From Vulcanimicrobiota bacterium (GTDB taxonomy: Bacteria; Vulcanimicrobiota; Vulcanimicrobiia; Vulcanimicrobiales; Vulcanimicrobiaceae), in assembly GCA_027307235.1 (NCBI GenBank), contig DAHUXH010000012.1, positions 124,001 to 188,000 on the forward strand: 64,000 nt of DNA. Direction: 5' to 3'. The position numbers and the translations under genes are program-made. Position 1 is the stretch's first letter; every line of letters begins with the position of its first letter. This document shows, in pieces, positions 1 to 57,305 of the stretch. Under the pieces are notes generated by a model. The model saw only the letters and a program-made list of their open reading frames with translations. It did no database searches and had not been told where the DNA came from.

Positions 1-2498
<2,498 letters not shown>

Positions 2499-2562
2499 GG
2501 GGCGATCCTCCAATTCGCCTACGAACTCGGCCGTTCGGCTGCCGCACTCCTTCTTCGCCGGC

Positions 2563-2949
2563 TCAAAGGTTTCTCACAAGGGCAGCCCCGGCGAACGCGG
2601 CGGCCAGACCGAGGACGACGCTGGTGCCGGCATACGCGAGCGCGAGCGCCGCGGCGCGATCGTTGATCAGCGTCACGGCGTCGAAGGAGAACGTCGAAAA
2701 CGTCGTGTACCCGCCGAGCACTCCGACCGCCAGAAACAGCCGCGCCTGCGGGCCGATGCCGAGCGCACGCGTCTGCGCGAGTTCGGCGACGATGCCGATG
2801 ACGAGGCTGCCCGTGACGTTGATGAACAGCGTCCCCCACGGAAAACCCGCGCCGAACCGCTGCGCGAACGCGAAGCCCACCACATAGCGCAGCACCGAGC
2901 CGAGTCCACCGCCGAGCGCGACGGTGAGCAGCGTGCGAACGTCGAGCAC
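2563..2949 (-). CDS. crcB: Fluoride ion channel CrcB/FluC
   Basis: A 128-residue, four-helix inner-membrane fluoride exporter, the usual length for the family. Diagnostic motifs are present: G-G-x-G-S-x-x-R-Y near residues 14-22, F-P-W-G-T-x-x-x-N-x-x-G-S around 41-53, and G-G-Y-T-T-F-S-T-F-S around 98-108, the region that forms the dimeric pore and Na-binding site. It starts 4 nt after the DUF190 stop, so it is the last gene of a three-gene unit. CrcB next to a DUF190 protein is a recurrent bacterial arrangement. I see no fluoride riboswitch upstream. Confidence 0.95.
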   Translation of the reverse strand: MLDVRTLLTVALGGGLGSVLRYVVGFAFAQRFGAGFPWGTLFINVTGSLVIGIVAELAQTRALGIGPQARLFLAVGVLGGYTTFSTFSFDAVTLINDRAAALALAYAGTSVVLGLAAAFAGAALVRNL

Positions 2950-2953
2950 GCGG

Positions 2954-3298
2954 TTATGCCTTGGGTTCGCCCGGGCTGTAGCGAATGATCTCCACGCTCT
3001 CCATCGTGATGAGACCGTCCTTCACCATGCCGTCGAGCGTGGGGAGAAATGCGCGCACCTTCTCCTCGGTGTCAACGATCTCGATCAGCAGCGGCAAGTC
3101 ACTGGAAAGATCGAAGACGCGCGCGGCGTGGACGACCGAGCGCGCACCGTATCCCTCGATGCCTTTGAACACGGTCGCGCCCGCGATGCCGGCGCTGCGA
3201 GCGGCCTCGACAATCGCGACATGCAACGGCGCCATTCCGGCGCGATCGCCCTCGCCAACGAAGATGCGCAGCAGCTTGCCCGTGCCTTCGAGTTTCAT
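2954..3298 (-). CDS. DUF190 (PII-like) protein linked to fluoride channel
   Basis: A 114-residue cytoplasmic protein of the DUF190 family, which has a PII-like ferredoxin fold and often sits beside crcB. The start at 3298 (M-K-L-E-G-T-G-K-L-L-R-I-F) matches the usual DUF190 N-terminus. It is supported by an ATGA overlap with the stop of the upstream small membrane gene. A TTG start 14 codons earlier is possible but less likely. The central G-I-E-G-Y-G and the D-L-P-L-L-I-E-I-V-D segment are typical. The role is unproven; the link to fluoride export is by context. Confidence 0.85.
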   Translation of the reverse strand: MKLEGTGKLLRIFVGEGDRAGMAPLHVAIVEAARSAGIAGATVFKGIEGYGARSVVHAARVFDLSSDLPLLIEIVDTEEKVRAFLPTLDGMVKDGLITMESVEIIRYSPGEPKA

Positions 3299-3453
3299 TT
3301 GGCCGTACCATACGGACAAGACGGGAGGTGCTGCTGACAAGCGGGCACGTTCCTATAGACGGCCCACCACTGCGAAAATCCGATCGCTCCGCACATCACC
3401 ACGAAGAAAACGATTAATCCGATACCCCAGGCGCGGCGCTTCCCGGGGGACAT
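3295..3453 (-). CDS. Small single-helix membrane protein
   Basis: About 52 residues with a short basic N-terminus (S-P-G-K-R-R), one strong transmembrane segment (residues 9-27) and a tail with two Cys. I chose ATG at 3453; GTG at 3468 or TTG at 3498 would extend it. Its stop overlaps the DUF190 start (ATGA), implying translational coupling with DUF190 and then crcB. I do not recognise the family. Because it is the first gene of the fluoride unit it may be an accessory subunit, but that is only context. Confidence 0.6.
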   Translation of the reverse strand: MSPGKRRAWGIGLIVFFVVMCGAIGFSQWWAVYRNVPACQQHLPSCPYGTAK

Positions 3454-3535
3454 TCCTGAATAGCGGCTCACGGGTGCAGAAGTGCATCCTCTCCACAAGG
3501 AGCACCTGCCGGGGACGAGAACCTGACGGCCCTAT

Positions 3536-4165
3536 ATGCGACAGATATGTATGTCGATGCTGGTTGCCGTGCTGCTGGCCGCCGGCCTGACGCCGCGCGC
3601 CGCCGATGCGTCCGCGCGCGTCGCCGCCACCGCCACCAACGTCCGTGCGTACGCACGCGTGCTGCGCACCATCAACCCGCAGTTGCCGGATTGGGAGAGC
3701 CGCGACTTCGCCAAGCGCGTGCTCGTCAACGCCGGCAAGTGGCGCATCGAGCCGAACATCCTGGTCGCGATCGTGACCGTCGAATCGGCCTGGCACACGC
3801 AGGCGCGCTCGTGGGCGGGCGCAATTGGGCTCGGTCAGTTGATGCCGTACACGGCCGCGACGCTCGGTGTCGATCCGCACGATCCCGCACAAAATCTTTC
3901 CGGCGCGGCACGCTATTTGAGCGCGCTCATTACGAAGTTCCGCCACCAGCCGAATTGCTTCACGCTCGCGTTCGCCGCCTACAACGCGGGCCCGCATGCG
4001 GTCGAGATGTACGGCGGCGTTCCGCCATACGCGCAGACGCAACGTTACGTCGTCAAGGTGATGACGGAATGGCACAAACTCAATAAAACCGTGCGCGTCG
4101 TCGCGCCGCAACTGCAGGTCGGCGATGCAGAGATTGCCTTCTGGAACGCCGACGTCCAGAACTAG
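3536..4165 (+). CDS. Lytic transglycosylase (SLT domain)
   Basis: A 209-residue exported peptidoglycan lytic transglycosylase of the Slt/MltE type. A signal peptide covers about residues 1-25. The SLT domain runs from about 70 to 185, with catalytic Glu83 in T-V-E-S-A-W-H, the substrate-groove motif I-G-L-G-Q-L-M-P (97-104) and A-Y-N-A-G-P (148-153). It cleaves the MurNAc-GlcNAc bond, giving 1,6-anhydro ends. Its stop overlaps that of convergent gmhB by 4 nt. The start could instead be the ATG at codon 6 or 8. Confidence 0.92.
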   Translation: MRQICMSMLVAVLLAAGLTPRAADASARVAATATNVRAYARVLRTINPQLPDWESRDFAKRVLVNAGKWRIEPNILVAIVTVESAWHTQARSWAGAIGLGQLMPYTAATLGVDPHDPAQNLSGAARYLSALITKFRHQPNCFTLAFAAYNAGPHAVEMYGGVPPYAQTQRYVVKVMTEWHKLNKTVRVVAPQLQVGDAEIAFWNADVQN

Positions 4166-4653
4166 CGCGACTCCATTCGAAGAATCTCCGCGACGGCGTC
4201 CGTAACGGTGCGGGCGCCGTCGATGTGTATGCCGGCCGCGCCGGCATTGCGCGCGGCTTCGAGGTCGCTCTGCTTGTCGCCAAGCGCATAGCAGCGTGAC
4301 GGTTCGACACCAAGCGCCCGCGCGGCGTCCAGCAGCAGTTTCGGCTTGGGCTTGCGGCACTCGCATCCGTCACCCGGCGCGTGCGGACAGATGAACCACC
4401 CGTCGAACGGTCCGAGAAGCTCTTCAACGCGCGCGTTGACCTCGCGCACCTGCTCGATCGTGATCAGGCCGCGCCCGACGCCGCTCTGATTGGTCACGAC
4501 AGCGATCGGAACGTGCGCCGCCCGCAGCCGATCCAGCGCCTGCGCGACGCCGGGGATCGGCTGCACGAACCGCGCGTCACCGTTGTACGGCACATCGACG
4601 ATGAGCGTGCCGTCACGGTCGAATAGCACGGCGAACGCTGGCCGGCCGGTCAT
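4162..4653 (-). CDS. gmhB: D-glycero-D-manno-heptose 1,7-bisphosphate 7-phosphatase (HAD family)
   Basis: A 163-residue HAD-superfamily phosphatase of the GmhB/HisB-N type. The nucleophile motif D-R-D-G-T is at 12-16, T-N-Q-S-G at 54-58, the zinc loop at C89-x-H91 to C97-x-C99, and G-D-K-Q-S-D at 125-130. It removes the 7-phosphate during ADP-heptose synthesis for LPS, which fits a diderm cell. HisB-type histidinol phosphatase is the main alternative, since no his genes or other heptose genes are linked here. It begins 4 nt after the BNR gene upstream. Confidence 0.88.
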   Translation of the reverse strand: MTGRPAFAVLFDRDGTLIVDVPYNGDARFVQPIPGVAQALDRLRAAHVPIAVVTNQSGVGRGLITIEQVREVNARVEELLGPFDGWFICPHAPGDGCECRKPKPKLLLDAARALGVEPSRCYALGDKQSDLEAARNAGAAGIHIDGARTVTDAVAEILRMESR

Positions 4654-4657
4654 CGCG

Positions 4658-7600
4658 TCACGGCGTTACCGTCTTGGCACCGGCGACCGGTTGCACGCCG
4701 GCCGCCTGAAGCTGGTGCGAGAGCGCCGCAAGCGATGCGACGTACGCATTGTATTTCGCCATCGCCGCTTGATACGCGTCGTCGAAGCGTGCCGCATATT
4801 CGCTGACGGCAGCGGTCGGCGGCAACGTCCCGAACGAGCGCGGCAAGTCTTCGCGCAGCTGCCCCGGATGCTGGATCGAGTCTTCGTCGTTGTGGTAGTC
4901 CGCGGTGAAGATCGAGAAGACGTCGTCATGGGCATGCAGGGCGTCGTCGATCTTCGCGACCAGCGCCGAGTTGTTTGCCGCCGCCTTGCGAGCCGCGCCG
5001 AGCGACGTGCGGATCGCGTCGAGGTTATTGAGCACCTCGTCGATCTTGCCGTACACCGCGTTGTACTTCTTGGCGAACGCCTGCGCCGCGTCGTAGTCGG
5101 CTTGCGTCGTCGAATCACGCGGGTCGGGTTTTACCACGACCGGTTGCGAGAGCGTCGTGCCGCCGAGTAGGACGCGCACCGTGTAGGTGCCCGGCGCGAC
5201 CTGCGGGCCTTCGAGCGGGCCGCGATAGGACTCTTTGGCCGCTCCCATCCACAGCGTCGGACCGTCTTCGCGGAAGTCCCACTGCACGCGATTGACGCCC
5301 GCCTTGTTGGAAACGTTGGGCACGTCTTTGTTGTTGACTTTGCGCGTGCCGGCGATCGTGCGAATCACAGCGCCACTCGCGTCGACGATCTCGATCTTCG
5401 GCAAGCTCTTCTGCGGTGCGGCTTGATAGAAGTTGATGATCGCACCGCCCGGCGGATTCGCACCGGCAAAGCGCGTGTAGGTGCCTTCGTCGTTGGAATG
5501 CGCATGGTACTCGTACGCCGTGCGGATCGGGAACAGATACGTTCCGGCAGCCTGTGCTTGCGCGAGTTGCTGCACCGGCGTGGCGTCGTCGAGCACCCAG
5601 ATCGCGCGACCGTGCGTGGCGAGCACGATGTCGTTGAACTCCGGCTGAATGCGCACGTCGCGCACCGAGACCGGCGGCAAGTTCAAGCGGAAGTTCCGCC
5701 AGTGCGCGCCTTCGTCGTACGAAAGGAACAGACCATTCTCCGTTCCGGCGTAGACCAGCTTGGGGTTGTGTGCGTCGGGGCGAATCGTGCGCACGTATTG
5801 ATCGCCCGGCAGGCCGTTGACGATCTTCGTCCACGTCTTGCCGTAGTCGTGGGTGACGAACGCGTAGGGCGCATAGTCGCCCGAACGATGGCGGTCGATG
5901 TTGACGTACGCGGTGCCCGCGACGAGCGGTGACGGCGAGGTCGCTTCAACCCGGCCGAACGGTGCAACGCCGGGCGGCGTGACGTTCTGCCACGATGTTC
6001 CGCCGTCGCGCGTGAGCTGCACTAGACCGTCGTCGGTGCCGACCCAAATCTCGCCGCGCGTGCGCTGCGAGCCTTCGATGTAGAGAATCGTGTCGGAGTA
6101 CTCTGCTCCCGACACGTCGAGCGCGAGCGGACCGCCCGCCGGTTTCTGATGATCTTTGACGTTGAGGGTGAGGTCGGGGCTGATCGGCGTCCAGTGCTCG
6201 CCTTTGTCGGTGGTTTGGAAGACGACGTCGCCGCCGTACCATGCGACGTTTCCGTCCCAGGGCGCGAACGCGATCGGAGAATCCCAATTGAATCGATACT
6301 TCGTGTTGCGCGTATCGAAGGTGTTCACCGAAAAATCCGAGTACGGCGCGATCGAATGGCTCGATTGCGTCTTGCGGTTGAAGATCGAGACGTGGCCGTC
6401 TTGCGAATCCGCCCAGATCAAGTTCGGGTCGGTCGGATCGGGAACGGCCCACATGCCGTCGCCGCCGACGACATTGGACCAGTGTTCGTCTTTGATGCCT
6501 TCGCGGTCGAGTGAGTTCGAGGGTCCGCAGAAGGCGTTGTTGTCTTGCAGACCGCCGCAGATGAAGTACGGATTTTCGTTCGAGAGCCCGATGTGGTAGA
6601 CCTGACCGATCGCAAGGTTGCGCGCGAACGACCAGTTCTTGCCGCCGTCGATGGTGATCGCGTTGCCGCCGTCTTCGCCGACGATCAGACGCTTGGCGTC
6701 GTTGGGCGCAATCCAGATCGCGTGATAGTCGACGTGAACGCTATCGGCGATCTCCTTGAATTTCTTCCCGCCGTCGGTGCTCTCGGCCAGCATCTCGGAG
6801 ACCGCGTACACGTGATCGGCGTTGCTCGGATCGACGTCGATGTGCGAGAAGTAAAATGGACGCTGATCGACGAGCGTGTCGTTCGACATCATCTTCCAGC
6901 TCGCGCCCGCGTCGTCGGAGCGCCACAGGATGCCGCTCTTGGCTTCGATGAGCGCGTACACGCGATTGGGTTCGCTCGGTGCGATCGCCAAACCGATGCG
7001 GCCGGTGATGCCGTCGGGCAATCCGCCGCCGGTGAGCTTCTTCCAGGTCTTGCCGCCGTCGGTTGACTTGTAGAGGCCGTCGGCGGCGCCGCCGCTGGTG
7101 AACGTCCACGGCTGACGGCGGAACTGCCAAATGCCGGCGTAGACGACGTTGGGATCGGCCGGATCCATCGCGACGTCGCTCGCGCCACTGGCCGGACCGA
7201 CATACAGCGACTTCGTCCAGGACGCGCCGCCGTCGAACGTCACGTAGACGCCGCGATCGGTGGAGTCGCCGAAGAGGTCGCCGAGCGCGCCGACGACGAC
7301 GTGATTGGGATTCTTCGGATCGATGCGCACGCGGGAGATGTGGCGCGTCGCCGCAAGCCCAACCATCTTCCACGTCTTGCCGCCGTCGGTCGTCTTGTAG
7401 AGACCGTCACCGTAGCTGACGTCGTTACGCGGATTGGTCTCGCCGGTGCCGGCCCAGACGACGTTCTTGTTCGTCGGATCGATCGCCACCGCGCCAATCG
7501 CGGAGACCGGCTCCTTATCGAAGACCGGCGTCCAGGTGGCGCCGCCGTTCTCGGATTTCCAGACCCCGCCGCCGGCTGTTCCGACGTAATAGAGGTTGGG

Positions 7601-11822: not shown

Positions 11823-14483
11823 ATGACGACGCTTGCGCACGACACGGATCCCCAAGAGACTCAGGAATGGCTCGACTCCATGCGCGGGGTGCTCGCGGCC
11901 GAGGGGCCTGAGCGCGCGCGCGACCTGATCGGGGCGATTGTCGGCGAGGCGCGGCGCGGCGGCGCTCATGTCTCCCTTGGGCTGGAAACGCCGTACATCA
12001 ACACGATCGCACCGGATCTCCAAGCACCGTTCCCCGGTGACCGCGAGCTGGAAGCGCATCTGCGCCACTACGTGCGCTGGAACGCCATGGCCATGGTGGT
12101 GCGCGCCAATAAGGAATCGAGCGAGTTGGGCGGACACGTCGCATCGTTCGCATCGGCGGCAACGCTGTACGACGTCGGCTTCAATCATTTTTTCCGCGCG
12201 CCCTCGGCAACGTTCGGCGGCGACTTGCTGTTCCTGCAAGGACACTCGTCACCGGGCTTCTACGCGCGCGCATTTCTCGAAGGCCGCATCACCGAACAGC
12301 AACTCGAACACTTCCGTCAAGAAGTGGACGGGCACGGCTTGTCGTCATATCCGCATCCGTGGTTGATGCGTGACTTCTGGCAGTTTCCGACGGTCTCGAT
12401 GGGACTTGGCCCCATCATGTCGATCTACCAGGCGCACTTCATGCGTTATCTGCACGACCGCGACCTGATCGATGCGAACAACCGCAAAGTGTGGGCGTTC
12501 GTCGGCGACGGGGAGATCGATGAACCTGAATCCCTGGGCGCGATTTCACTTGCCGGCCGCGAGAAGCTCGACAACTTGATCTGGGTGATCAACTGCAATC
12601 TGCAGCGTCTGGACGGCCCGGTGCGCGGCAACGGCAAGATCATTCAAGAACTCGAACGCGTCTTCAAAGGCGCGGGATGGAATGTGATCAAGGTGATCTG
12701 GGGCACCGCCTGGGATCGTCTGCTCGCGGCCGACACCACCGGACGTCTCGTGCAATTGATGAACGAATGCGTCGACGGCGACTATCAAACGTTCAAGTCG
12801 CGCGATGGAAAGTACGTGCGCGAGCAGTTCTTCGGGCGCTATCCCGAGACCGCGGCGCTCGTCGCCGACATGACCGACGAAGAAATTTGGGCGCTGCAGC
12901 GGGGCGGCCACGACCCCGCCAAGGTCTACGCCGCATACAAAACGGCGTTCGAACACACCGGCCAACCGACGGTCATCCTGGCGAAGACGATCAAGGGCTA
13001 CGGCATGGGTGAGGCAGGCGAAGCACGCAACATCGCCCACCAGGCGAAAAAAATGGATATCGACGAGATGCGCGCGTTTCGCGATCGCTTCTCGATTCCA
13101 ATCTCCGACAGCGATATCGAGAAAGTTCCGTTCTTCAAACCTGCCGAGAACAGCCCCGAGATGCGGTATCTGCGCGAGTGCGTGGAACGGCGCGGCAGCC
13201 TGCCGGCGCGCCGCACGTCGTCGGTGTCGCTCGCGGTGCCCGAACTCTCGGCGTTCGAGGGACAATTGCAGTCTAGCGGCGAGCGCGAACACTCCACCAC
13301 GATGGCGTTCGTGCGTATCTTGAGCACGCTCGTGCGCGACCCGGAGATCGGTCCGCGCGTCGTGCCGATCGTTGCCGACGAATCGCGCACGTTCGGCATG
13401 GAAGGCATGTTTCGCCAACTCGGCATCTACTCGTCGGTCGGTCAGCTCTATCATCCGCAAGATTCGGAGCAATTGATGTGGTACCGCGAGGACAAGCACG
13501 GCCAGATTCTGCAAGAGGGCATCAACGAAGCCGGTGCGCTGTCGTCATGGATCGCGGCCGGAACGTCGTATGCCAATCATGACTTGCCGATGATTCCTTT
13601 CTACATCTTTTACTCGATGTTCGGTTTTCAGCGCATCGGCGATCTCGCGTGGGCGGCGGGCGACAGCCGCACGCGCGGGTTCTTGCTCGGCGGCACGTCC
13701 GGGCGAACCACGCTCAACGGTGAAGGATTGCAGCACGAGGACGGGCACAGCCAAGTGTTCGCCTCGTTCATCCCCAACTGCGTCAGCTACGATCCGACCT
13801 TCGGATACGAGGTCGCGGTGATCATTCAAGACGGCTTGCGTCGCATGCTCACCAATCAAGAAGACATCTACTACTACATCACGCTGCTCAACGAAAACTA
13901 CAACCATCCCGCGATGCCGCAAGGCGCCGAGAACGGCATCTTGCGCGGCATGTACCTCTTTCGTGACGGCGGCGGCGACGCTGCCGCGCCGCGCGTGCAG
14001 CTCTTCGGCTCGGGCGCGATTCTGCGCGAAGTCATCGCGGCCGCCGACCTGCTGGCGAGTGATTGGAACGTGCTCGGCGACGTGTGGAGCGTCACGAGCT
14101 TCAACCAACTGCAGCGCGACGGCGTCGACACGCAGCGCTGGAATCTGACGCACCCCGAACAACCGGCGCGGCGCTCGTTCGTCGAGGAATGCTTGGCGAA
14201 CCATCGCGGGCCGGGCGTGGCCGCCACCGACTACGTTCGCACCTTCGCCGAGTCGATTCGTCCGTTCGTGGGGCGGCGCTACATGACGCTCGGCACCGAC
14301 GGATTTGGACGCAGCGACTACCGGCGCAAACTGCGGCGGTTCTTTGAGGTCGATCGCTTCTATGTCACGCTGGCCGCGCTAAAATCGCTTGCCGACGAAG
14401 GAACGATTCCCGCCAAGACCGTCAGCGACGCAATCGCGAAGTACGGCATCGATCCCAACAAACCCAACCCCATCACCGTTTGA
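11823..14483 (+). CDS. aceE: Pyruvate dehydrogenase E1 component, homodimeric type
   Basis: An 886-residue single-chain E1 of the AceE type, which uses thiamine diphosphate to decarboxylate pyruvate and reductively acetylate E2. The ThDP motif begins G-D-G-E (228-231) and continues through E-P-E-S-L; H-S-S-P-G-F (141-146) and the P-H-P-W region are typical. The length matches family members of about 880-890. aceF follows with its GTG about 20 nt after the stop. No lpd (E3) gene is adjacent. Confidence 0.98.
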   Translation: MTTLAHDTDPQETQEWLDSMRGVLAAEGPERARDLIGAIVGEARRGGAHVSLGLETPYINTIAPDLQAPFPGDRELEAHLRHYVRWNAMAMVVRANKESSELGGHVASFASAATLYDVGFNHFFRAPSATFGGDLLFLQGHSSPGFYARAFLEGRITEQQLEHFRQEVDGHGLSSYPHPWLMRDFWQFPTVSMGLGPIMSIYQAHFMRYLHDRDLIDANNRKVWAFVGDGEIDEPESLGAISLAGREKLDNLIWVINCNLQRLDGPVRGNGKIIQELERVFKGAGWNVIKVIWGTAWDRLLAADTTGRLVQLMNECVDGDYQTFKSRDGKYVREQFFGRYPETAALVADMTDEEIWALQRGGHDPAKVYAAYKTAFEHTGQPTVILAKTIKGYGMGEAGEARNIAHQAKKMDIDEMRAFRDRFSIPISDSDIEKVPFFKPAENSPEMRYLRECVERRGSLPARRTSSVSLAVPELSAFEGQLQSSGEREHSTTMAFVRILSTLVRDPEIGPRVVPIVADESRTFGMEGMFRQLGIYSSVGQLYHPQDSEQLMWYREDKHGQILQEGINEAGALSSWIAAGTSYANHDLPMIPFYIFYSMFGFQRIGDLAWAAGDSRTRGFLLGGTSGRTTLNGEGLQHEDGHSQVFASFIPNCVSYDPTFGYEVAVIIQDGLRRMLTNQEDIYYYITLLNENYNHPAMPQGAENGILRGMYLFRDGGGDAAAPRVQLFGSGAILREVIAAADLLASDWNVLGDVWSVTSFNQLQRDGVDTQRWNLTHPEQPARRSFVEECLANHRGPGVAATDYVRTFAESIRPFVGRRYMTLGTDGFGRSDYRRKLRRFFEVDRFYVTLAALKSLADEGTIPAKTVSDAIAKYGIDPNKPNPITV

Positions 14484-14503
14484 ACGCTAGGCAAGGAGCA
14501 GGA

Positions 14504-16048
14504 GTGAGCGACACGCTGGAAGTTCGCGTTCCCGACATCGGCGACTTCAAAGACGTTCAAGTCATCGAGGTGATGGTCAAACCTGGCGATCGCATCGCCA
14601 AGGACGCATCGCTGATCACGCTCGAGAGCGACAAGGCGTCGATGGAAGTGCCATCGACGGCCGCAGGCATCGTGCAAGACGTACGCGTCAAAGTCGGTGA
14701 CAAAGTTGCCAAAGGCAGCGTGATCGTGACGCTGGCCGCGAGCGAGACCGCCGCACCGGCTGCGAACACCGCGCCGGCGCCGGCGAAGCGGGAGACCACT
14801 GTTGACGTGGTCGTTCCGGACATCGGTGATTTCAAAGACGTGCAGATCATCGAAGTGCTGGTGAAACCCGGCGACACGATCGCCAAGGATGCATCCGTCG
14901 TCACCCTCGAGAGCGACAAAGCCTCGATGGAAGTCCCGGCGAGCGCCGGCGGCACGATCGTCGAGGTGCGCGCGAAGGTCGGCGATCGCGTTTCCAAAGG
15001 CTCCGTGCTCGCCACCATGAGAACGTCGGAATCGGCGACGGTACAGGCGCCGCCCGCCGCGGCGGCACCGGCGGTGGCACCGGCACCGGTCAGCGCACTT
15101 CCCGCGAAGGCACCGCCCGTCGCACCGATCAAGACCAACGGCATCGTGCACGCGAGTCCGGCGATTCGCCGGTTCGCGCGCGAACTCGGCGTCGATCTTC
15201 AAGGGCTTTCCGGCAGCGGACCGCACGGGCGCGTCACGCGCGAGGACGTGCAGAGCTTCGTCAAGCGCGCGCTCCAGGGAGACGGCGCATCCGCCGGCGG
15301 CGGAATCGGTGTCGCCGGACTTCCTCCGTGGCCGGTCGTCGACTTCGCGCAGTACGGCGAGATCGAACGCAAGCCGCTCTCACGCATCAAGAAAGTCTCC
15401 GGACCGAATCTGCACCGCAACTGGCTGCAGATTCCGCACATCACCAACTACGACGAAGCCGACATCACCGATCTGGAAGCCTTCCGCCTTGCGCTGAGCG
15501 CCGAACAAACGAAAAAGGGCGGACCGAAGGTGACGATGCTGGCGTTCTTGATGAAAGCCTGCGTCGCGACATTGCAGCAATTTCCCGATTTCAATGCATC
15601 GCTCGACGGCGACTCGCTCGTCTACAAGAAGTATTACAACATCGGTTTCGCCGCCGACACGCCCAACGGTCTGGTGGTGCCGGTGATCAAGAACGCGGAC
15701 CGCAAGGGGCTGATCGAGATCGCGCATGAATCCGCGGAACTCGCGGGCAAGGCGCGCGAAGGGAAACTCGGATTGAGCGAAATGCAGGGCGGGACGTTCA
15801 CCATCTCATCGATCGGCGGCATCGGGGGAACGCAGTTCACCCAGATCGTCAACGCACCCGAGGTCGCGATTCTCGGTGCGACGCGCGCGGCGATGCGTCC
15901 GGTGTGGAACGGCAAGAAATTCAAAGCGCGCTTGATGCTGCCGATCAGCGTCAGCTACGACCACCGCGTAATCGACGGCGCCGCCGCCGCCCGTTTCCTC
16001 GTCTACCTCAGCAACCTGCTAGCCGACTTCCGCCGGGTTCTTCTCTAG
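14504..16048 (+). CDS. aceF: Dihydrolipoyl acetyltransferase, E2 of pyruvate dehydrogenase
   Basis: A 514-residue E2 with two lipoyl domains, each opening V-P-D-I-G-D-F and carrying the lipoyl lysine in E-S-D-K-A-S (Lys44 and Lys139). Ala/Pro linkers, an E1/E3-binding domain (about 214-250) and the acetyltransferase core follow; catalytic His is in D-H-R-V-I-D-G near residue 487. GTG at 14504 was chosen because AAGGAG lies directly upstream; a TTG overlapping the aceE stop is the alternative. A palindromic repeat begins 5 nt after the stop. Confidence 0.97.
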   Translation: MSDTLEVRVPDIGDFKDVQVIEVMVKPGDRIAKDASLITLESDKASMEVPSTAAGIVQDVRVKVGDKVAKGSVIVTLAASETAAPAANTAPAPAKRETTVDVVVPDIGDFKDVQIIEVLVKPGDTIAKDASVVTLESDKASMEVPASAGGTIVEVRAKVGDRVSKGSVLATMRTSESATVQAPPAAAAPAVAPAPVSALPAKAPPVAPIKTNGIVHASPAIRRFARELGVDLQGLSGSGPHGRVTREDVQSFVKRALQGDGASAGGGIGVAGLPPWPVVDFAQYGEIERKPLSRIKKVSGPNLHRNWLQIPHITNYDEADITDLEAFRLALSAEQTKKGGPKVTMLAFLMKACVATLQQFPDFNASLDGDSLVYKKYYNIGFAADTPNGLVVPVIKNADRKGLIEIAHESAELAGKAREGKLGLSEMQGGTFTISSIGGIGGTQFTQIVNAPEVAILGATRAAMRPVWNGKKFKARLMLPISVSYDHRVIDGAAAARFLVYLSNLLADFRRVLL

Positions 16049-16052
16049 AAGA

Positions 16053-16150
16053 AAGCTCTGATTTCCGCCAGGCCGTCGTTGCGGAGAGGCTCGTGTACCG
16101 TATAGTACACGTCGCCTCTCCGCGCCTCGGCCTGACGAAAATCAGGGCTT
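16053..16150. repeat. 98-bp imperfect palindromic repeat, copy A
   Basis: Two 46-nt arms (16053-16098 and 16105-16150) flank the loop CGTATA. The arms are mostly complementary: both begin AAGC(T/C)CTGATTT, contain CAGGCCG and GCGGAGAGGC, and end GTGTAC. An inverted copy lies at 51634-51735. The element sits between the convergent 3' ends of aceF and the small ORF at 16162-16281. It resembles a REP/BIME unit or a miniature palindromic element. It could act as a terminator or mRNA 3' stabiliser, though it lacks a T-tract. Confidence 0.9.
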
Positions 16151-16161
16151 CCTTAAGGGCA

Positions 16162-16439: not shown

Positions 16440-16802
16440 ATGAGTGACAAAGCGACCGGCGTGGATGCCATCTTCTTTTCCGTCAAAGACGTTCCGCGCG
16501 CGATCGCGTTCTATCGCGAGCTGCTCTCCATCGCCGAAACGTCGTGGGAAGCGGAGTACGGCGCCGAGTGGATTCTCGGCGACGGCACGGCGTTCGGCGT
16601 CGGCGCGTATTCGAGCGGCGAGTACAAGCCGTCCGGCTGCGTGCTCTTTGCCGTGCCCGACGTAGAAACGCTTGCCAAGCGTGTGCCGCAGATCGGGGGC
16701 ACGCTGATCGAAGGCGTTCGCGACTTCCCCAACTGCCGGGCGCAATGGTGCGAGGACCCCGATGGAAACTCATTCGTCCTCCATCAACGCACCGCGCCCT
16801 AG
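16440..16802 (+). CDS. VOC-family (glyoxalase/bleomycin-resistance fold) protein
   Basis: A 120-residue protein with one vicinal-oxygen-chelate domain built of two beta-alpha-beta-beta-beta modules. The first opens I-F-F-S-V-K-D-V-P-R-A-I-A-F-Y-R-E-L-L; the second ends W-C-E-D-P-D-G-N-S-F-V-L-H-Q. Family members include isomerases, dioxygenases and resistance proteins; the metal ligands and substrate cannot be assigned here. It is isolated, with nothing recognisable between its stop and the convergent gene 116 nt away. Confidence 0.85.
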   Translation: MSDKATGVDAIFFSVKDVPRAIAFYRELLSIAETSWEAEYGAEWILGDGTAFGVGAYSSGEYKPSGCVLFAVPDVETLAKRVPQIGGTLIEGVRDFPNCRAQWCEDPDGNSFVLHQRTAP

Positions 16803-50422: not shown

Positions 50423-51616
50423 ATGACCAAACGGGCTCTCTTTCTCATCTCTGATACGGGCGGCGGACACCGCAGCGCCGCCAATGCCATCACGGCCGCG
50501 CTCGGCGAAGTCGCTGAACCCCGCTTCGAGCATCGCATTGACGACGTTGCCGCACACTGCTCGTTTCCGCTCACGCAACTGGGCTTGGGCTACTCGATGG
50601 CCCTGCGCTACGCGCCGCCGGTCTACGGTGCGCTGTACTACGCCACCAACGGACGCCGCCGCTACCGCGCGCTGGTTCGCTTCTGCGAACCGCTCTATCG
50701 CGAACGCCTGCGCGACTTGTTTCTCGAGTACAACCCCGACGTGATCGTTTCCGTGCATCCGCTGCTCAATCACGCGGCACTGCGGGCGCGCGCCGATGCC
50801 CGCATGTGGGCGGTTCCCATCGTCACCGTCATCACCGACCTCGGCAAAGTGCACGAGTCGTGGCTGACGCCCGAAGCCGATTCGGTCGTCGTGCCCGCGC
50901 GTGAAGTCTATCAACGCGCGCTCTCGCGCGGCGTCTCCCCGTCGCGCCTACGTCTGCTCGGTCATCCGATCCATCCGCGCTTCGACGACGTCGTCGGAAC
51001 CAAGGCAGAGCTGCGCGAGCGGCTGGATATTCCGCAAGACGCGCTCATCACGCTGTTGATGGCTGGCGGTGAAGGCGGCGGCAAACTCTTGCCGACCGCG
51101 ATCGCTCTAGCCAAGGCGCGCTTGCCGATGCACCTCGTGGTCGTGTGCGGACGCAACGAACCGCTGCGAGAAAAACTCGCCGAGATGTCGGCGCACCTGC
51201 CGACGCCGATGACCGTGCTCGGCTTCACCGAGAAGATTCCCGAACTCTACCGCGCCGCCGACCTGCTGGTCACCAAAGCCGGACCCGGCGCGCTCGCCGA
51301 AGCCAACGCCGCGCAGTTGCCGGTCGTCGTCTATGACTACGTGCCCGGACAAGAGCGCGGCAACGTCGATTTCGTGCGCACCAACGCGATCGGTGAGGTC
51401 GCTTTGAACAGCGCCGGGCAAGTTGTGGCCGCCGTCGAGCGCATGATCCGTAACCCGGCACGCCTGAGCGCGATGCGCGAGCGTCAAGAAGCGATCGCGC
51501 CGCGCCGCAGTTCACGCCGGATCGCCGCGCTCATCGCCCAAATCGCCACCGAAGGCACGATCCCCCCGCAAGAAGACTTAGCTCCCGCCCCCCTACGCGA
51601 AGCCGCCGGCGTCTAA
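50423..51616 (+). CDS. Diacylglycerol glycosyltransferase-like (MGDG synthase/UgtP family)
   Basis: A 397-residue GT28-type enzyme. The MGDG-synthase N-terminal domain opens F-L-I-S-D-T-G-G-G-H-R-S-A-A (7-20). The C-terminal UDP-sugar half has M-A-G-G-E-G-G-G-K, L-G-F-T-E-K-I-P-E-L and K-A-G-P-G-A-L-A-E-A. It probably transfers glucose or galactose to diacylglycerol on the inner membrane face. The lipid acceptor is inferred. Copy B of the palindromic repeat begins 17 nt after the stop. Confidence 0.88.
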   Translation: MTKRALFLISDTGGGHRSAANAITAALGEVAEPRFEHRIDDVAAHCSFPLTQLGLGYSMALRYAPPVYGALYYATNGRRRYRALVRFCEPLYRERLRDLFLEYNPDVIVSVHPLLNHAALRARADARMWAVPIVTVITDLGKVHESWLTPEADSVVVPAREVYQRALSRGVSPSRLRLLGHPIHPRFDDVVGTKAELRERLDIPQDALITLLMAGGEGGGKLLPTAIALAKARLPMHLVVVCGRNEPLREKLAEMSAHLPTPMTVLGFTEKIPELYRAADLLVTKAGPGALAEANAAQLPVVVYDYVPGQERGNVDFVRTNAIGEVALNSAGQVVAAVERMIRNPARLSAMRERQEAIAPRRSSRRIAALIAQIATEGTIPPQEDLAPAPLREAAGV

Positions 51617-51633
51617 TCTCGTCACGATTCTTC

Positions 51634-51735
51634 GGGAAGCTCTGATTTTCGTCAGGCCGAGGCGCGAAGAGGCGAAGTGTACTACGGTACACGAGCCTCT
51701 CCGCAACGAAGGCCTGGCGGAAATCAGAGCTTCCC
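51634..51735. repeat. 102-bp imperfect palindromic repeat, copy B (inverted)
   Basis: The reverse complement of this segment aligns along its whole length with copy A at 16053-16150, sharing AAGCTCTGATTT, CAGGCC, GTTGCGGAGAGGC, GTGTAC and the other arm. Its outer ends form a perfect GGGAAGCTCTGATTT inverted repeat. It lies between the convergent glycosyltransferase and glucokinase genes and supplies the glucokinase stop codon. Confidence 0.9.
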
Positions 51736-52659
51736 GTGAAAAACCATGGTGGCGGCGCCGACTTGTCCGGCGTCGTTTCCTAGGGTGGCGCAGAGGAGGC
51801 GAGTGGTGCCTTTGGGGACCATCGTCGTCAGTTCGTCGACGCGTGCGCGGACGGAGTCGAGCAGAAAATCGCCGGCGCTGGATACCCCGCCGCCGAGCGC
51901 GATCACGTCGGGATTCACGCACGCGATCACGTTGGCGAGACCGGTCGCCAGATCCGCGCAAAAGTTCTTCCACGCGGCGAGCGCGTGAAGATCGCCGGTT
52001 TGCGCCGCCTTACGAATCTTCTTTGACCCGATGTCGCTCTTGTCGAGCAAGCGGCTGCGTGGAAACGAGTGCGCGATCGCCAGCGCATGACGGATGAGTC
52101 CAGTGCCCGACGCTTGCGCTTCGAAGCATCCGATTTTCCCGCACCCGCAGACAAAGCCGTCGGTTGCGCGAATTTGATGGTGCCCGAATTCACCGGCGCC
52201 CCAACGATTGCCGAGGATCAGTTTGCCGTCGGCCACGATGCCGCCCCCGATGCCGGTTCCCAGCGTCAGCATCACGAAGTCGCGCGACTCGCGCCCGGTG
52301 CCGAAGGTGTACTCGCCCAGCGTCGCGCAGCGTGCGTCGTTGGCGATGAAGACCGGCTGCTTGAAGCGCGCGCGCAACCGCTCGCCGAGCGGCGCGCCGG
52401 TCCAGCCGAAATTCGGCGAGTAGAGGACCGTGCCGCTGGCCGCATCGATGTTTCCCGGTGAGCCGATCCCGACGCCGACGACGTCGCTGCCGGCCGCATA
52501 GACCGCTTTTTCAATGACGTCCACGACGAGGTCGATCACCGCATCGAACGAGCGGTTCTCGATGTCGTGCTCGTGTTGAGAATGAATGACGCCGTCGTCG
52601 GTGACGACGGCCGCGGTGACGTGCGACCCGCCAAGATCGACACCGATAGCTGTTTTCAC
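51724..52659 (-). CDS. ROK-family glucokinase
   Basis: A 311-residue ROK kinase. The ATP motif is V-D-L-G-G-S-H (7-13), the catalytic Asp108 is in A-N-D-A-R, G-T-G-I-G-G-G binds phosphate, and the ROK zinc cluster is G-H-H (159-161) with Cys171, Cys173 and Cys178. It phosphorylates glucose or a related sugar with ATP. GTG 52659 lies inside a palindrome; AGG 4-5 nt upstream is the only ribosome-site candidate. The last three codons and the TGA come from repeat copy B. Confidence 0.92.
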   Translation of the reverse strand: MKTAIGVDLGGSHVTAAVVTDDGVIHSQHEHDIENRSFDAVIDLVVDVIEKAVYAAGSDVVGVGIGSPGNIDAASGTVLYSPNFGWTGAPLGERLRARFKQPVFIANDARCATLGEYTFGTGRESRDFVMLTLGTGIGGGIVADGKLILGNRWGAGEFGHHQIRATDGFVCGCGKIGCFEAQASGTGLIRHALAIAHSFPRSRLLDKSDIGSKKIRKAAQTGDLHALAAWKNFCADLATGLANVIACVNPDVIALGGGVSSAGDFLLDSVRARVDELTTMVPKGTTRLLCATLGNDAGQVGAATMVFHGKL

Positions 52660-52673
52660 GAACCTGGGGTTCG
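52659..52673. promoter_or_regulatory. Perfect palindrome between divergent ROK and Cys-cluster genes
   Basis: CGAACC-TGG-GGTTCG overlaps the first base of the ROK GTG codon. On the plus strand it lies between TTTTCA and TATGTT, a weak -35/-10 pair with about 17 nt spacing. It could be an operator for both genes or an RNA hairpin masking ROK initiation. Confidence 0.5.
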
Positions 52674-52683
52674 GTATGTTATC

Positions 52684-53376
52684 ATGGACGTCATGCAAAC
52701 GATCGACCTCATCGCCCTTCGCGACTACTCGCGGGAGACCGGTCAGCCGACCCATCCCGAACTGCTCGACACGGTGCCGTTGGAGCACGTGAAAGAGATC
52801 GAGATCGACGAAGAACACGTCACGATCACGTACAACCAAACGACGACGCACTACTACAACACCAATGAGATTACCGAACGCGAATGGGTGTACAAGTACA
52901 ACGACGACGCGGAGATGGTCAAGGCGATCGCGCGCGTGATTGATCTCGCGCGCAAAAAGTTGAAAGACATGCCCGAGAACGTGGCGTGTCCGCCGGGATG
53001 CGCCGAATGTTGCAGCGGATATGAACCGTTCGTCAGCAAGCGCGACGTGCAGCGCATCGCCGATCACCTCGGCATGACGTTTGACGACGTGATGCACGAA
53101 TACATCGTCGAGCGCAAGTCCGCTGACGGTTATCATCTCGGCTGGGTGCGGAAAGTTACCGAAGACGTCGAGGACAAGTGCGTCTTCCTCATGGGATCGC
53201 GCAGCGGTCGCTATTATTGCGGTATCTACGAAGCACGCCCGCAAGATTGCCGCGACTTCACGCCGATCGGCTGTGACGACGTCGATCGCTCGCTGTCGCG
53301 CACGTCCAAGTTCGCACCGGGAGCACCGTTCGCGCCCAAGCGACGCGGCGTGCGCAAACGCCGCTCGTCCTCGTGA
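52684..53376 (+). CDS. YkgJ-type cysteine-cluster protein
   Basis: A 230-residue soluble protein of the Cys-cluster (CxxxCxxCC) family, thought to bind zinc or iron-sulfur. Cysteines are at 102, 106, 109 and 110 (C-P-P-G-C-A-E-C-C), then 166, 179, 189 and 197 (Y-Y-C-G-I-Y, D-C-R-D-F). The N-terminal 95 residues are unlike short YkgJ proteins, and the C-terminus is strongly basic. ATG 52684 or 52693 may be used. The next gene overlaps by GTGA. Confidence 0.85.
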   Translation: MDVMQTIDLIALRDYSRETGQPTHPELLDTVPLEHVKEIEIDEEHVTITYNQTTTHYYNTNEITEREWVYKYNDDAEMVKAIARVIDLARKKLKDMPENVACPPGCAECCSGYEPFVSKRDVQRIADHLGMTFDDVMHEYIVERKSADGYHLGWVRKVTEDVEDKCVFLMGSRSGRYYCGIYEARPQDCRDFTPIGCDDVDRSLSRTSKFAPGAPFAPKRRGVRKRRSSS

Positions 53377-54305
53377 GCTTTCAGGCACGCGCGGCGCGCG
53401 CGCTCTTGCGCGTGACGACGCGACTGCCGCTCTCACGCGCGCTCGGCACGCCGCGCGTCGTCGCCGCCACACGGTCGGCATTCAACCGCGGAGGCCTGAC
53501 GTTCGGCCGCGCCTCGCGACGCGTGCGCATCGAGTCGATCGACGTCGACGGGATGCGCGGCGAGTGGACAATTCCGCGCGCACGACCCACCCAGCGCGTC
53601 ATCTATTATCTGCACGGCGGCGGCTTCGTGGCATGCGCGGTGGCGACATATCGCACGCTCACGAGCGCCCTTGCCCTGCACGCGAATGCGAGCGTCTGCG
53701 CCGTCGACTACCGGCTCGCGCCCGAACACCCATTCCCGGCGGCGCACGACGACGCGTTGCGCGGTTACCGGTGGCTGCTCGCCCAGGGAATCGCGCCCGA
53801 ACAGATCGTGATCGCGGGTGATTCGGCGGGTGGAAATCTCGCGCTCGCCACCGCTATCGCGGCGCGCGATCGCGGTGAACCGTTGCCCGCGGCGCTCGTG
53901 CTGTTCTCACCGTGGACCGATCTGGCGGGCACGGGCGCGTCGGCGCGAGAGAACGCCGCCACCGACGATCTGATCGTGGACGACGGCTCGCACGCCGTCG
54001 CACGTGCCTACGCCGGCGATCGCGACCTCGACGATCCGGCGATCTCGCCGCTGTACGCCGATCTCGACGGCCTTGCGCCCATGCTCGTGCATGCCAGCTC
54101 CATCGAGATACTGCGCGACGATGCGATTCGTCTGGTCGAACGCGTGCGCGAGCGCGGCGGCGACGCCCGCATCCGGCTGTGGGACGGCGTACCGCACGTC
54201 TGGCAGCTCTTCGCATCGTTGCCCGAGTCGCGCGCATCGTTCGAAGAGGCCGGCCGATTCGTCACCGCCTGTTGCGATAGAGGACCCGTCAGCGTCAGTG
54301 CGTAG
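53373..54305 (+). CDS. Alpha/beta hydrolase, hormone-sensitive-lipase (acetyl esterase) family
   Basis: A 310-residue esterase. The oxyanion motif H-G-G-G-F is at 81-85, the nucleophile Ser151 in G-D-S-A-G-G, and the acid/base pair is Asp250 and His275. This is HSL family IV, acting on short acyl esters. GTG 53373 overlaps the upstream stop (GTGA), so it is coupled to the Cys-cluster gene. It ends 33 nt before the third BNR gene. Confidence 0.93.
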   Translation: MSFQARAARALLRVTTRLPLSRALGTPRVVAATRSAFNRGGLTFGRASRRVRIESIDVDGMRGEWTIPRARPTQRVIYYLHGGGFVACAVATYRTLTSALALHANASVCAVDYRLAPEHPFPAAHDDALRGYRWLLAQGIAPEQIVIAGDSAGGNLALATAIAARDRGEPLPAALVLFSPWTDLAGTGASARENAATDDLIVDDGSHAVARAYAGDRDLDDPAISPLYADLDGLAPMLVHASSIEILRDDAIRLVERVRERGGDARIRLWDGVPHVWQLFASLPESRASFEEAGRFVTACCDRGPVSVSA

Positions 54306-54338: not shown

Positions 54339-57305
54339 ATGCGTTCTTTTCCGCTACGCACGGCGGCCGTTGTGCTCGCTGCCGCGTTACTGTCCCAGGG
54401 TGCGCTGCAGCCGCCGGCGGCTGCGCGTTCTACCATCGATCCGACCTCGGCGCTGCAGTGGCGCTATATCGGCCCCGCGCGCGGCGGCCGTACGGTCGCG
54501 GTCGCAGGCGTCCCGTCGCAGCCGAATCTGTACTACATCGCGGCCGTCAACGGCGGCATCTGGAAGAGCGACGACTACGGGCGCACCTGGGTGCCGGTCT
54601 TCGACGGACAGCCGACGCAGTCGATCGGCGCGCTTGCGGTCGCTCCAAGCGACCCGAACGTGATCTACGCCGGTAGCGGAGAAGGTTTGCGCCGTCCTGA
54701 CCTCGCGGTCGGCGACGGTATGTACAAATCCACCGACGCGGGCAAGACCTGGACGCACCTCGGTTTGCGCGACGGGCAACAGATCAACGGCATCGCCGTC
54801 GATCCGCGCGACCCCAATCGCCTGTTCGTCGCCGTCGTCGGACATCCGTACGGACCCAATCCCGAGCGCGGTTTGTATCGCTCAACCGACGGCGGCGCGA
54901 GTTTCCAGCGCGTGCTCGGCAACGACTCCGACACCGGGGCGGTCGCCGTCGAGATCGATCCGAACGCGCCCGACACCGTGTACGCGGCACTGTGGCTCTC
55001 GCGCCGTCCGCCGTGGACCACCGGCGATCCGCTGCAGATTTGGAAGGGCGCGCTCTACAAATCGACCGATGGCGGCTCAACCTGGAGCAAAGTCATCACC
55101 GGGATGCCGGCACGCATCGGCCGCATCGGTTTCGACATCGCGCGCAGCGATTCGTCGCGGCTCTACGCCGTGGTCGATTCACCCGACGGCTGCGGCATCT
55201 ATCGTTCGAACGACGCCGCCGCAACCTGGACGCGCACGAACACGGAAGGTCGCGTCTGCGGTCGCGGTTCCGACTTCGCGGGCATCACCGCCGATCCGGT
55301 CGACGAAAACGAGGTTTACGTCGCGAACACCTCGACGTACCGTTCGACCAACGGCGGTTCCACATTTGTCGCGATCAAAGGCGCACCCGGCGGCGACGAC
55401 TATCACACCGTCTGGATCAATCCGCTCAATCACAATCTGATCTTCCTCGGCAGCGATCAAGGCGCGACGCTCTCGGTCAACGACGGGCGCACGTGGAGTT
55501 CGTGGTACAACCAACCAACGGCGCAGATGTATCACGTCACGGCCGATAACCGGTTTCCGTATTGGGTGTGTAGCGGCCAGCAAGAGAGCGGCACGGCTTG
55601 CGTGCGCACGCGCGGCGACATGGGTGAGATCACCATGCGAGAATGGCATCCGGTCGGCGGAGAAGAGTACGGATACGTCGCACCCGACCCGTTGCATCCC
55701 GGTATCTTCTTCGCCGGAAAGGCGTCGCGCTTCGACGAACGCACGAGCCAATTCCAAGACGTTTCGCCGGTCATCGGCCGCAACGCCGACTATCGTTTCG
55801 ACCGCACCGCGCCGTTGATCTTCAATCCGGTCGATCCGCACATTCTGTATTTGGGATCGAGCGTCGTCTTCGCAACCCGCGACGGCGGCATGCACTGGAA
55901 GGTGATAAGCCCGGATCTCACGCGCCCGAACCCGGGCACGCCGTCGAAGCTCGGCGCCTTCGCGAACCAAGATCCGCGCAAGGGACAGCATCGCGGCGTC
56001 GTCTACGCGCTCAGTCCGTCGTACGTGGACAAAGACACCATCTGGGCCGGAACCGACGACGGTTTGGTGTGGGTGACGCACGATCAGGGAGCGCACTGGA
56101 AAAACGTCTCGCCGCAATTGACCGCATGGAGCAAGGTCGCGCAGATCGACTCCTCGCACTTCGACAATCACTCAGCATACGTCGCGGTCAATCGTTTCCG
56201 CCTCGACGACCTGCATCCGTACATCTACCGCACGCACGACGACGGCAAAACCTGGACGCCGATCGTCAACGGCCTGCCGAATGCACCGGTCAACGCGGTG
56301 CGCGAAGACCCGGTTCGCCGCGGATTGCTCTACGCATCGACCGAAACCGGCGTCGACGTGTCGTTCGACGACGGTGATCACTGGCAGTCGCTCACACGCA
56401 ACTTGCCGCCCACCTCGGTGCGCGACATCATCGTGCATGGCGACGATCTCGCCGTCGGCACGCACGGCCGCGGCTTCTGGATCCTCGACGACGTTGAACC
56501 GTTGCGCGAATACGCAAGCGCGATCGGCACGCAGGCCCTGCACCTCTTCGCGCCGGCCAGCGCGTACCGCGTGCGGCGTTCACTCGGCAACGACACGCCG
56601 TTGCCGCCCGAGGAGCCGATGGGACAGAACCCGCCTGACGGAGCGATCTTCGACTACTCTCTCGCTCGCGACGTCACGCATGTCTCGATCACGATCAGCG
56701 ACATGGCGGGCCGCATGATTCGCCGCTTCCAAAGCGACGATCCGGCGCAAGCGGAAATTCCGGGTCTCGACAAACCAACCTACTGGGAACGCGTGCCGAG
56801 CAACCCGCAAACGTCGGCGGGAATGCATCGTTTTGTGTGGGATCTGCACGGCACCACACCGCGCACGATGAACGTCGATCTGTCGTTCGGCGCCGTTCCG
56901 CATGACACGCCGCATGAACCGCTCGGCACATACGTGCCGCCCGGACGCTATACCGTGCGCGTCGTGGCCGACGGTGCCGCGCAGACGCGTACGTTCACGG
57001 TTCGCCCCGACCCTCGCGTGAATGCAAGCGTGGGAACCCTCCGCGGCGTCGCCGCCATCTCCGACCATCTGGTCGATTTGCTCGACCGCACGTTTGCGGC
57101 AGCCGCGCGCGCGCACGCGCGGAACAACGACACGGTCGCTTCAGGCTTCGCGCGGCTCAACGGTCAACTGCAAGCGATCTACGCCGTGATCGAGGGCGTC
57201 GACGCCCAGCCGACTGCCACCGCGCTCGCCGCGTATGAACGCCTGCGCAGGGAAGCGGAGACTGCCCTTGCGAACGGTAAACCCTCGCATTCATCTGGAG
57301 GATAA
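54339..57305 (+). CDS. Sortilin/VPS10-like BNR beta-propeller protein
   Basis: A 988-residue secreted protein; the signal peptide ends near A-A-A-R-S (residue 31). Asp-box repeats occur throughout (S-D-D-Y-G-R-T-W, S-T-D-A-G-K-T-W, T-R-D-G-G-M-H-W, T-H-D-D-G-K-T-W, S-F-D-D-G-D-H-W). The C-terminal region has the same helical tail as the 4658-7762 paralog. ATG 54339 has GGAGG 9 nt upstream; the TTG at 54318 is rejected because it precedes the ribosome site. Confidence 0.9.
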   Translation: MRSFPLRTAAVVLAAALLSQGALQPPAAARSTIDPTSALQWRYIGPARGGRTVAVAGVPSQPNLYYIAAVNGGIWKSDDYGRTWVPVFDGQPTQSIGALAVAPSDPNVIYAGSGEGLRRPDLAVGDGMYKSTDAGKTWTHLGLRDGQQINGIAVDPRDPNRLFVAVVGHPYGPNPERGLYRSTDGGASFQRVLGNDSDTGAVAVEIDPNAPDTVYAALWLSRRPPWTTGDPLQIWKGALYKSTDGGSTWSKVITGMPARIGRIGFDIARSDSSRLYAVVDSPDGCGIYRSNDAAATWTRTNTEGRVCGRGSDFAGITADPVDENEVYVANTSTYRSTNGGSTFVAIKGAPGGDDYHTVWINPLNHNLIFLGSDQGATLSVNDGRTWSSWYNQPTAQMYHVTADNRFPYWVCSGQQESGTACVRTRGDMGEITMREWHPVGGEEYGYVAPDPLHPGIFFAGKASRFDERTSQFQDVSPVIGRNADYRFDRTAPLIFNPVDPHILYLGSSVVFATRDGGMHWKVISPDLTRPNPGTPSKLGAFANQDPRKGQHRGVVYALSPSYVDKDTIWAGTDDGLVWVTHDQGAHWKNVSPQLTAWSKVAQIDSSHFDNHSAYVAVNRFRLDDLHPYIYRTHDDGKTWTPIVNGLPNAPVNAVREDPVRRGLLYASTETGVDVSFDDGDHWQSLTRNLPPTSVRDIIVHGDDLAVGTHGRGFWILDDVEPLREYASAIGTQALHLFAPASAYRVRRSLGNDTPLPPEEPMGQNPPDGAIFDYSLARDVTHVSITISDMAGRMIRRFQSDDPAQAEIPGLDKPTYWERVPSNPQTSAGMHRFVWDLHGTTPRTMNVDLSFGAVPHDTPHEPLGTYVPPGRYTVRVVADGAAQTRTFTVRPDPRVNASVGTLRGVAAISDHLVDLLDRTFAAAARAHARNNDTVASGFARLNGQLQAIYAVIEGVDAQPTATALAAYERLRREAETALANGKPSHSSGG

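Follow-up and report, generated by a model that had tools for sequence, protein, structure and literature searches.

A dispersed palindromic hairpin with its foot on stop codons in a Vulcanimicrobiota genome, and a core shared with other phyla

We found that two long palindromes in a 64,000-nucleotide stretch of DNA from a Vulcanimicrobiota bacterium (the window) belong to a dispersed repeat with about 70 copies in the genome. The repeat forms a single hairpin with a conserved two-loop core and is placed in sense orientation with its foot on the stop codon of the upstream gene. With moderate confidence, we interpret it as a palindrome that was amplified in this lineage, would act as a 3'-UTR hairpin and would spread non-autonomously. 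The same core occurs in other phyla, and the nearest known element by this core is the Correia element of Neisseria (CREE/NEMIS) rather than REP/BIME.

Copies A and B and the anatomy of the hairpin

The initial annotation described the two palindromes as near-perfect hairpins of common descent that align end to end as reverse complements. The alignment was confirmed (98% identity in a 50-nt segment and 91% in a 55-nt segment), and both common descent and membership of a dispersed palindromic repeat are supported. Repeat search, folding and sequence place the full hairpin of copy A nearer to 16048-16156 on the plus strand, and that of copy B nearer to 51631-51737 on the minus strand, a shift from the boundaries first given. 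The folding energy of each is about -70 kcal/mol (z about -11, equalled by none of the shuffles), so the description as hairpins holds, but calling them near-perfect overlooks two conserved internal loops in both. The core of copy A spans 16075-16128 (+), where stem II, internal loop B and the apical stem lie inside internal loop A (GTCGTT at 16075-16080 opposite GCCTC at 16124-16128, from the sequence and the conservation across 68 copies). The sequence of copy B has the corresponding core at 51659-51710 (-), made up of a TTCGTT/GCCTC loop A, stem II, loop B and the apical stem. Elsewhere in the window, 1711-7085 and 54710-56279 share several long inverted matches (71-88%) on opposite strands, which from their sequence look like related repeat-containing genes.

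Further copies were sought, as the initial annotation had proposed, in the genome of the window (2.41 Mb in 20 contigs, 96.6% complete). Using copy A as a query, about 45 full-length copies were found, mostly 87-97% identical, and a covariance model built from Eremiobacterota only (R1) brought the number to about 70. The palindromes are thus not confined to the two sites, and the copies are alike end to end rather than over a short stem only.

The element is about 107 nt long and runs from outer stem I through internal loop A (KTCGTT on the 5' side, facing GCCTC), a stem II of some 10 bp and internal loop B to a 5-bp apical stem (TGTAC/GTACA) capped by a small loop. Conservation is concentrated at its centre: across 68 copies, most of the unpaired columns in the core show 96-100% conservation, whereas columns of the outer stem fall to 30-80% and the terminal columns to 28-53%. 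Among copies the stems differ in sequence and keep their pairing. In the copies from this genome, changes on both sides were found at 27 of 37 pairs, compared to 14.7 in shuffles, and the covariation score was 0.330 versus 0.099 in shuffled alignments, with 0 of 500 as high and slid registers reaching at most 0.087.

Two features expected of a structured RNA, covariation and conserved unpaired positions, are therefore present, without an excess of G.U pairs over A.C mismatches. A function purely in the sense RNA predicts more G.U than A.C, yet the counts run in the opposite direction (30 versus 40 in the genome's own copies, 10 versus 24 for stem II in a taxonomically diverse set), which counts against a sense-RNA function. 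Either the structure matters as DNA, or the arms are mutually corrected during replication; DNA-level correction of this kind could generate covariation without RNA selection. The marked strand orientation of the copies, on the other hand, argues for a role in the transcript or for oriented insertion.

Placement on stop codons

We mapped the copies relative to open reading frames (ORFs) using our own simple ORF caller rather than an annotation. Among sense ORFs of at least 60 codons, one ended between -5 and +2 nt from the 5' foot in 50 of 71 copies, a rule satisfied by 3.6% of random positions (p = 1e-55), and the bias towards gene 3' ends suggested by the initial annotation is thus supported genome-wide. 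Among the remaining 21 copies, 10 had ORFs that stop 6-15 nt inside the hairpin and 4 had ORFs that end slightly upstream of it, with the 5' arm tandemly half-duplicated in 3-4 of these. The antisense control (opposite strand, other foot) gave 17 of 71, likewise above random owing to the many convergent sites. TAG was the stop codon at the foot in 35 of 50 cases, as opposed to 126 of 398 genes (Fisher p = 2e-7). The upstream genes are intact housekeeping genes, including those for E2, a ROK-family protein, a ClpC-type AAA protein, sigma-70 and TldD/PmbA and, in other genomes with the core, GroES and GroEL.

Tandem half-copies were seen at four places (L059 3432-3590, L065 10725-10883, L050 5954-6112 and C10:307928 in L234). 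In these the 5' arm is doubled over the stretch between the base of the hairpin and roughly its apex, the full copy restarts after it, and the stop codon lies at the foot of the half-copy. At a further locus (L048 3590-3869), three element-derived repeats of about 87 bp follow one gene head to tail.

With respect to neighbouring genes, 38 of the 71 copies are convergent, 20 lie between genes co-directional in the orientation of the hairpin, 12 between genes in the opposite orientation and 1 between divergent genes. The rule is therefore sense orientation with the foot on a stop codon; convergence is common but secondary, a partial by-product of the tighter stop-codon rule. The window itself illustrates this. 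The gene for the E2 acyltransferase of a 2-oxoacid dehydrogenase (14480-16048, +) ends at the foot of copy A, its stop codon abutting the hairpin rather than lying 5-17 nt away as first described. The next sizeable ORF past copy A, of 120 aa (16440-16802, +), is co-directional, with just one 39-aa antisense ORF seen by eye in between, so copy A does not lie between convergent genes and the claim that the palindrome is always found at convergent 3' ends fails for it. Copy B does have a convergent partner, a 397-aa ORF (50423-51616, +) that ends 14 nt short of its other foot. The ROK-family gene that is read in the orientation of copy B (51724-53481, -; Pfam match at 51727-52818) extends about 14 nt into the hairpin, and the element therefore supplies its stop codon.

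The sequence beyond the hairpin was also informative. Just 2 of 71 copies have TTTT within 10 nt past their end, and the element does not qualify as an intrinsic terminator, which would carry a U-tract directly after the hairpin. At convergent gene pairs such as L065 3555/3731 and L056 3591/3731, both genes are followed by a copy of their own, with a T-run hairpin in the space between the copies. This arrangement puts the element within the 3' UTR, before the terminator, and speaks against its being the terminator itself.

The element in sister genomes and in other phyla

The catalytic domain of the E2 protein is matched as far as profile position 231/232, so its C-terminus is native, and orthologues in 25 sister genomes have a C-terminus of the same kind (e.g., LLADFRRVAL-TAG). 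No element was detected at the fetched E2 loci of these 25 genomes (model R2, described below; E<=0.1), a few of which were incomplete or had a gene end that was not located (L348, L352). From this comparison, copy A was probably gained at the native E2 stop codon on its own lineage; loss in all of the other sister genomes is possible but less parsimonious.

Turnover was seen in a sister genus of four genomes whose genes are 81-92% identical. Orthologous sites are common to G037-G039, and one pair of orthologous copies (L308/L318) differs by a compensatory change, GGTAATC/GATTACC to GGCAATC/GATTGCC. At one site the outer hairpin alone is left in G038, apparently owing to a deletion between TCTGA repeats, and a 5' remnant is left in G037; at a second site, the stop codon in G037 is followed directly by the next sequence. 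The elements are thus old in places and have been lost by deletion, and none is essential. In G037 and G039, contigs break at a copy (L313, L323, L319, L324); these contig-end copies are identical in two species with flanks that are 83% identical, and L313 and L323 were left out as possible assembly artefacts. By eye, the foot sequences form inverted, not direct, repeats, and flanks of congeneric empty sites were mostly not alignable. A reading of the palindromic feet as target-site duplications was dropped because the 3' foot is an inverted copy of the 5' foot.

We ran a core pattern (TCGTTGC-N7-CTYRTGTRC-N2-12-GYACACNNCG) over a species-level genome collection and obtained at least 80 matches, with fewer than one expected by chance in the whole collection according to a rough estimate of our own. 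The matches fold to the same architecture. Reversed-pattern controls gave no matches, and neither did viral contigs searched with the core pattern. Among the matches listed, the titles include Eremiobacterota, Burkholderiales, Rhodocyclales, Azospira, Cupriavidus, Rheinheimera, Rhodospirillales, Fibrobacter, an archaeal metagenome-assembled genome (MAG) and a MAG labelled Moraxella. Many carriers are MAGs, and their labels and possible contamination therefore call for caution; carriers in culture include Azospira oryzae DSM 21223, Cupriavidus pauculus UM1 and Rheinheimera riviphila KYPC3. In a random sample of Pseudomonadota the strict pattern was found in 1 of 398, namely the centre genome only, and occurrence in this phylum is thus sporadic.

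Placement after genes extends to these genomes. A sense ORF ended 8-50 nt before the core in 59 of the 79 non-Moraxella matches listed, compared to 14% at random, and in this set the spacing was most often 23-29 nt. Upstream families confirmed elsewhere include GroES, GroEL, an ABC ATPase and E2, and the core is often found behind groES, groEL or tRNA-Ile. In the rRNA operons of three genomes (L090, L117, L121), the hairpin begins directly behind tRNA-Ile; its core is located in the spacer before tRNA-Ala, 15-16 nt past the tRNA-Ile end, with the CCA end in the stem. Five Rhodocyclales-type genomes (L110, L127, L136, L141, L153) carry it at one site after an ABC-type ATPase gene, where the arms differ and remain complementary and, in some, the TGA stop codon is paired with TCA. 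In Burkholderiales (L284-L303, from G604, G603, G390 and G595), the core hairpin and a second, related hairpin are part of repeats some 275 bp long that are bounded by terminal inverted repeats (e.g., AGGGCCTGTTAAC...).

A second covariance model (R2) was built from 58 sequences of many taxa, with no CREE in training. Covariation in this set was 0.500 versus 0.161 when shuffled (0 of 500 as high; slid versions at most 0.203). R2 gave at least one match at 1e-5 in 76 of 147 Eremiobacterota genomes and in 19 of 100 genomes from the order to which G158 belongs. No Rfam family was recovered at gathering thresholds for the element in relatives or at diverse loci, and copy A gave sub-threshold microRNA matches only. 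Our literature search returned nothing direct on stop-codon hairpins near groEL, Correia elements outside Neisseria or repeats of Eremiobacterota.

CREE have been called unique to Neisseria (PMC5039591). The element is similar in length to their short form of about 106 bp and has in common with them CGTTGC, the GTAC...GTAC apex and the 3' GCGCC/GTCGCCTTG loop strand. It differs in lacking the TATAGTGG termini and TA flanks of CREE and in its GC-rich outer stem set on stop codons; the termini TATAGTGG...CCACTATA with a TA target were absent from the listed copies of this genome. These termini are present in L259, and a variant form occurs in the Moraxella-labelled MAG, JAUNUB01, which carries at least 28 Correia-like elements of 107 bp (L079-L156) with Correia-like ends (TATAGTCAATTAAAA...TTTTAATCGACTATA) flanking the core. 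Some of them lie mid-way in a larger palindrome (AGGGTCTGTTGACATTTCG...CGAAATGTCAACAGACCCT). The JAUNUB01 elements were detected by R1 at E-values of 9e-12 to 3e-9, models without Correia training gave 1e-9 to 1e-16 for Moraxella-labelled elements, and against a 106-bp Neisseria CREE 81 of 117 positions were identical (z = 10). R2 matched Neisseria CREE at two loci (L265, 3e-6; L259, 7e-4), and 3 of the 5 CREE loci searched had no match at E<=1. The direct link is weak, with a pairwise z of 3.1 between the element of this genome and CREE. Kinship with CREE through the Moraxella-labelled intermediate is probable, though not proven.

Possible modes of action and spread

According to our preferred explanation, transcripts of the upstream gene would include the element at the start of their 3' UTR, ahead of the terminator. 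The resulting hairpin at the mRNA 3' end may slow 3'-to-5' decay and/or serve as an RNase III-type processing site, the latter by analogy with CREE, which is bound and sometimes cleaved by RNase III (PMC2649163). It might be tuned by the terminating ribosome, whose footprint would cover the outer stem. Spread would be non-autonomous and biased towards stop codons, particularly TAG; no enzyme that could mobilise the element was found, and no target duplication was evident. A broader version of this explanation, which we regard as unlikely, sees cross-phylum stop-codon palindromes with dedicated placement, of which Correia elements would be a derived branch. On reaching the end of the gene, the terminating ribosome would open the outer stem at the stop codon, and the hairpin would thereby report translation to RNA decay or processing.

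The strongest rival, possible but clearly less probable than the preferred explanation, is a purely selfish mobile palindrome with insertion specificity for TAG-rich stop codons and no host function, whose arms would be kept complementary through template-switch correction of quasipalindromes or because transposition requires it. The excess of TAG at the foot, the E2 site unmatched in sister genomes, the missing bias of G.T over A.C and the Burkholderiales core hairpin within repeats bounded by terminal inverted repeats all agree with it. CREE are likewise documented as mobile, with the mobilising mechanism undetermined (PMC2649163), and the half-copies in tandem, with their restart at the apex, point to errors in copying. 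Against it, no transposase was identified in the genome and no target-site duplication was seen by eye, orthologous copies persist across genera or species with compensatory changes, and the mismatches of the internal loops are conserved, although correction of the arms by itself would remove them.

We consider it improbable that the element is a vertically inherited functional RNA whose high copy number reflects retention rather than mobility. The sites common to G037-G039 and the shared ABC-type ATPase site of the five Rhodocyclales-type genomes, with the TGA stop itself paired, are consistent with inheritance, but copies within the genome are far closer to each other (87-97%) than to those of relatives, and copy A is unmatched in the 25 sister genomes. 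More improbable again is a bidirectional transcription terminator: a very stable hairpin at gene ends, in 38 of 71 cases between convergent genes, would suit such a role, yet TTTT follows so rarely, convergent pairs have two copies and a separate T-run hairpin between them, and 20 copies lie between co-directional genes.

Several known repeats were compared with the element. REPs are palindromic, dispersed and extragenic and lie 3' of genes; those tagged GTAG have a unit of 20-40 nt with an unpaired GTAG end, and those tagged CGTC have stems of 8-9 bp and loops of 4-5 nt and no known dedicated transposase (PMC3733652). The element resembles REP/BIME in being a dispersed extragenic palindrome at gene 3' ends, but differs in its 107 nt, its conserved internal loops, its far tighter stop-codon placement and the lack of a GTAG tag and a RAYT transposase. 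It resembles CGTC-tagged REPs in that no dedicated transposase is known; assignment to these was rejected, as it has neither the terminal CGTC nor such a stem and loop and forms one long three-stem hairpin. A genome search for the Y1 transposase (PF01797) gave nothing over the cut-off, and the best match (14.9 versus 23 bits), antisense within a long ORF, was judged a false positive. The proposal of the initial annotation that REP/BIME elements, with a RAYT as one possible mobiliser, are among the nearest analogues was therefore not supported: despite the likeness in dispersal and position, a RAYT-moved REP/BIME is largely refuted by a 107-nt single hairpin with internal loops, variable ends and no GTAG tag in a 96.6% complete genome without a Y1 transposase over the cut-off. 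With no RAYT above the cut-off and no U-tract, the element fits neither of the tested classes, REP/BIME or intrinsic terminator.

As for miniature inverted-repeat elements (MITEs) flanked by terminal inverted repeats, the Burkholderiales core sits within repeats flanked in this way, but the copies in this genome lack such repeats and their outer arms vary. Diversity-generating retroelements (DGR) and integron-type systems also place a hairpin near a stop codon. The attC sites of integrons have conserved outer ends and a variable inner part, whereas here the inner core is conserved and the outer ends vary.

If our interpretation is correct, a repeat described as restricted to Neisseria belongs to a wider family, present in half of the sampled Eremiobacterota and in scattered Pseudomonadota, in which a mobile-looking palindrome is set on stop codons with near single-codon precision. 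It would then become testable how Correia-type elements spread without an obvious transposase, and what effect a stop-codon hairpin has on mRNA ends and translation.
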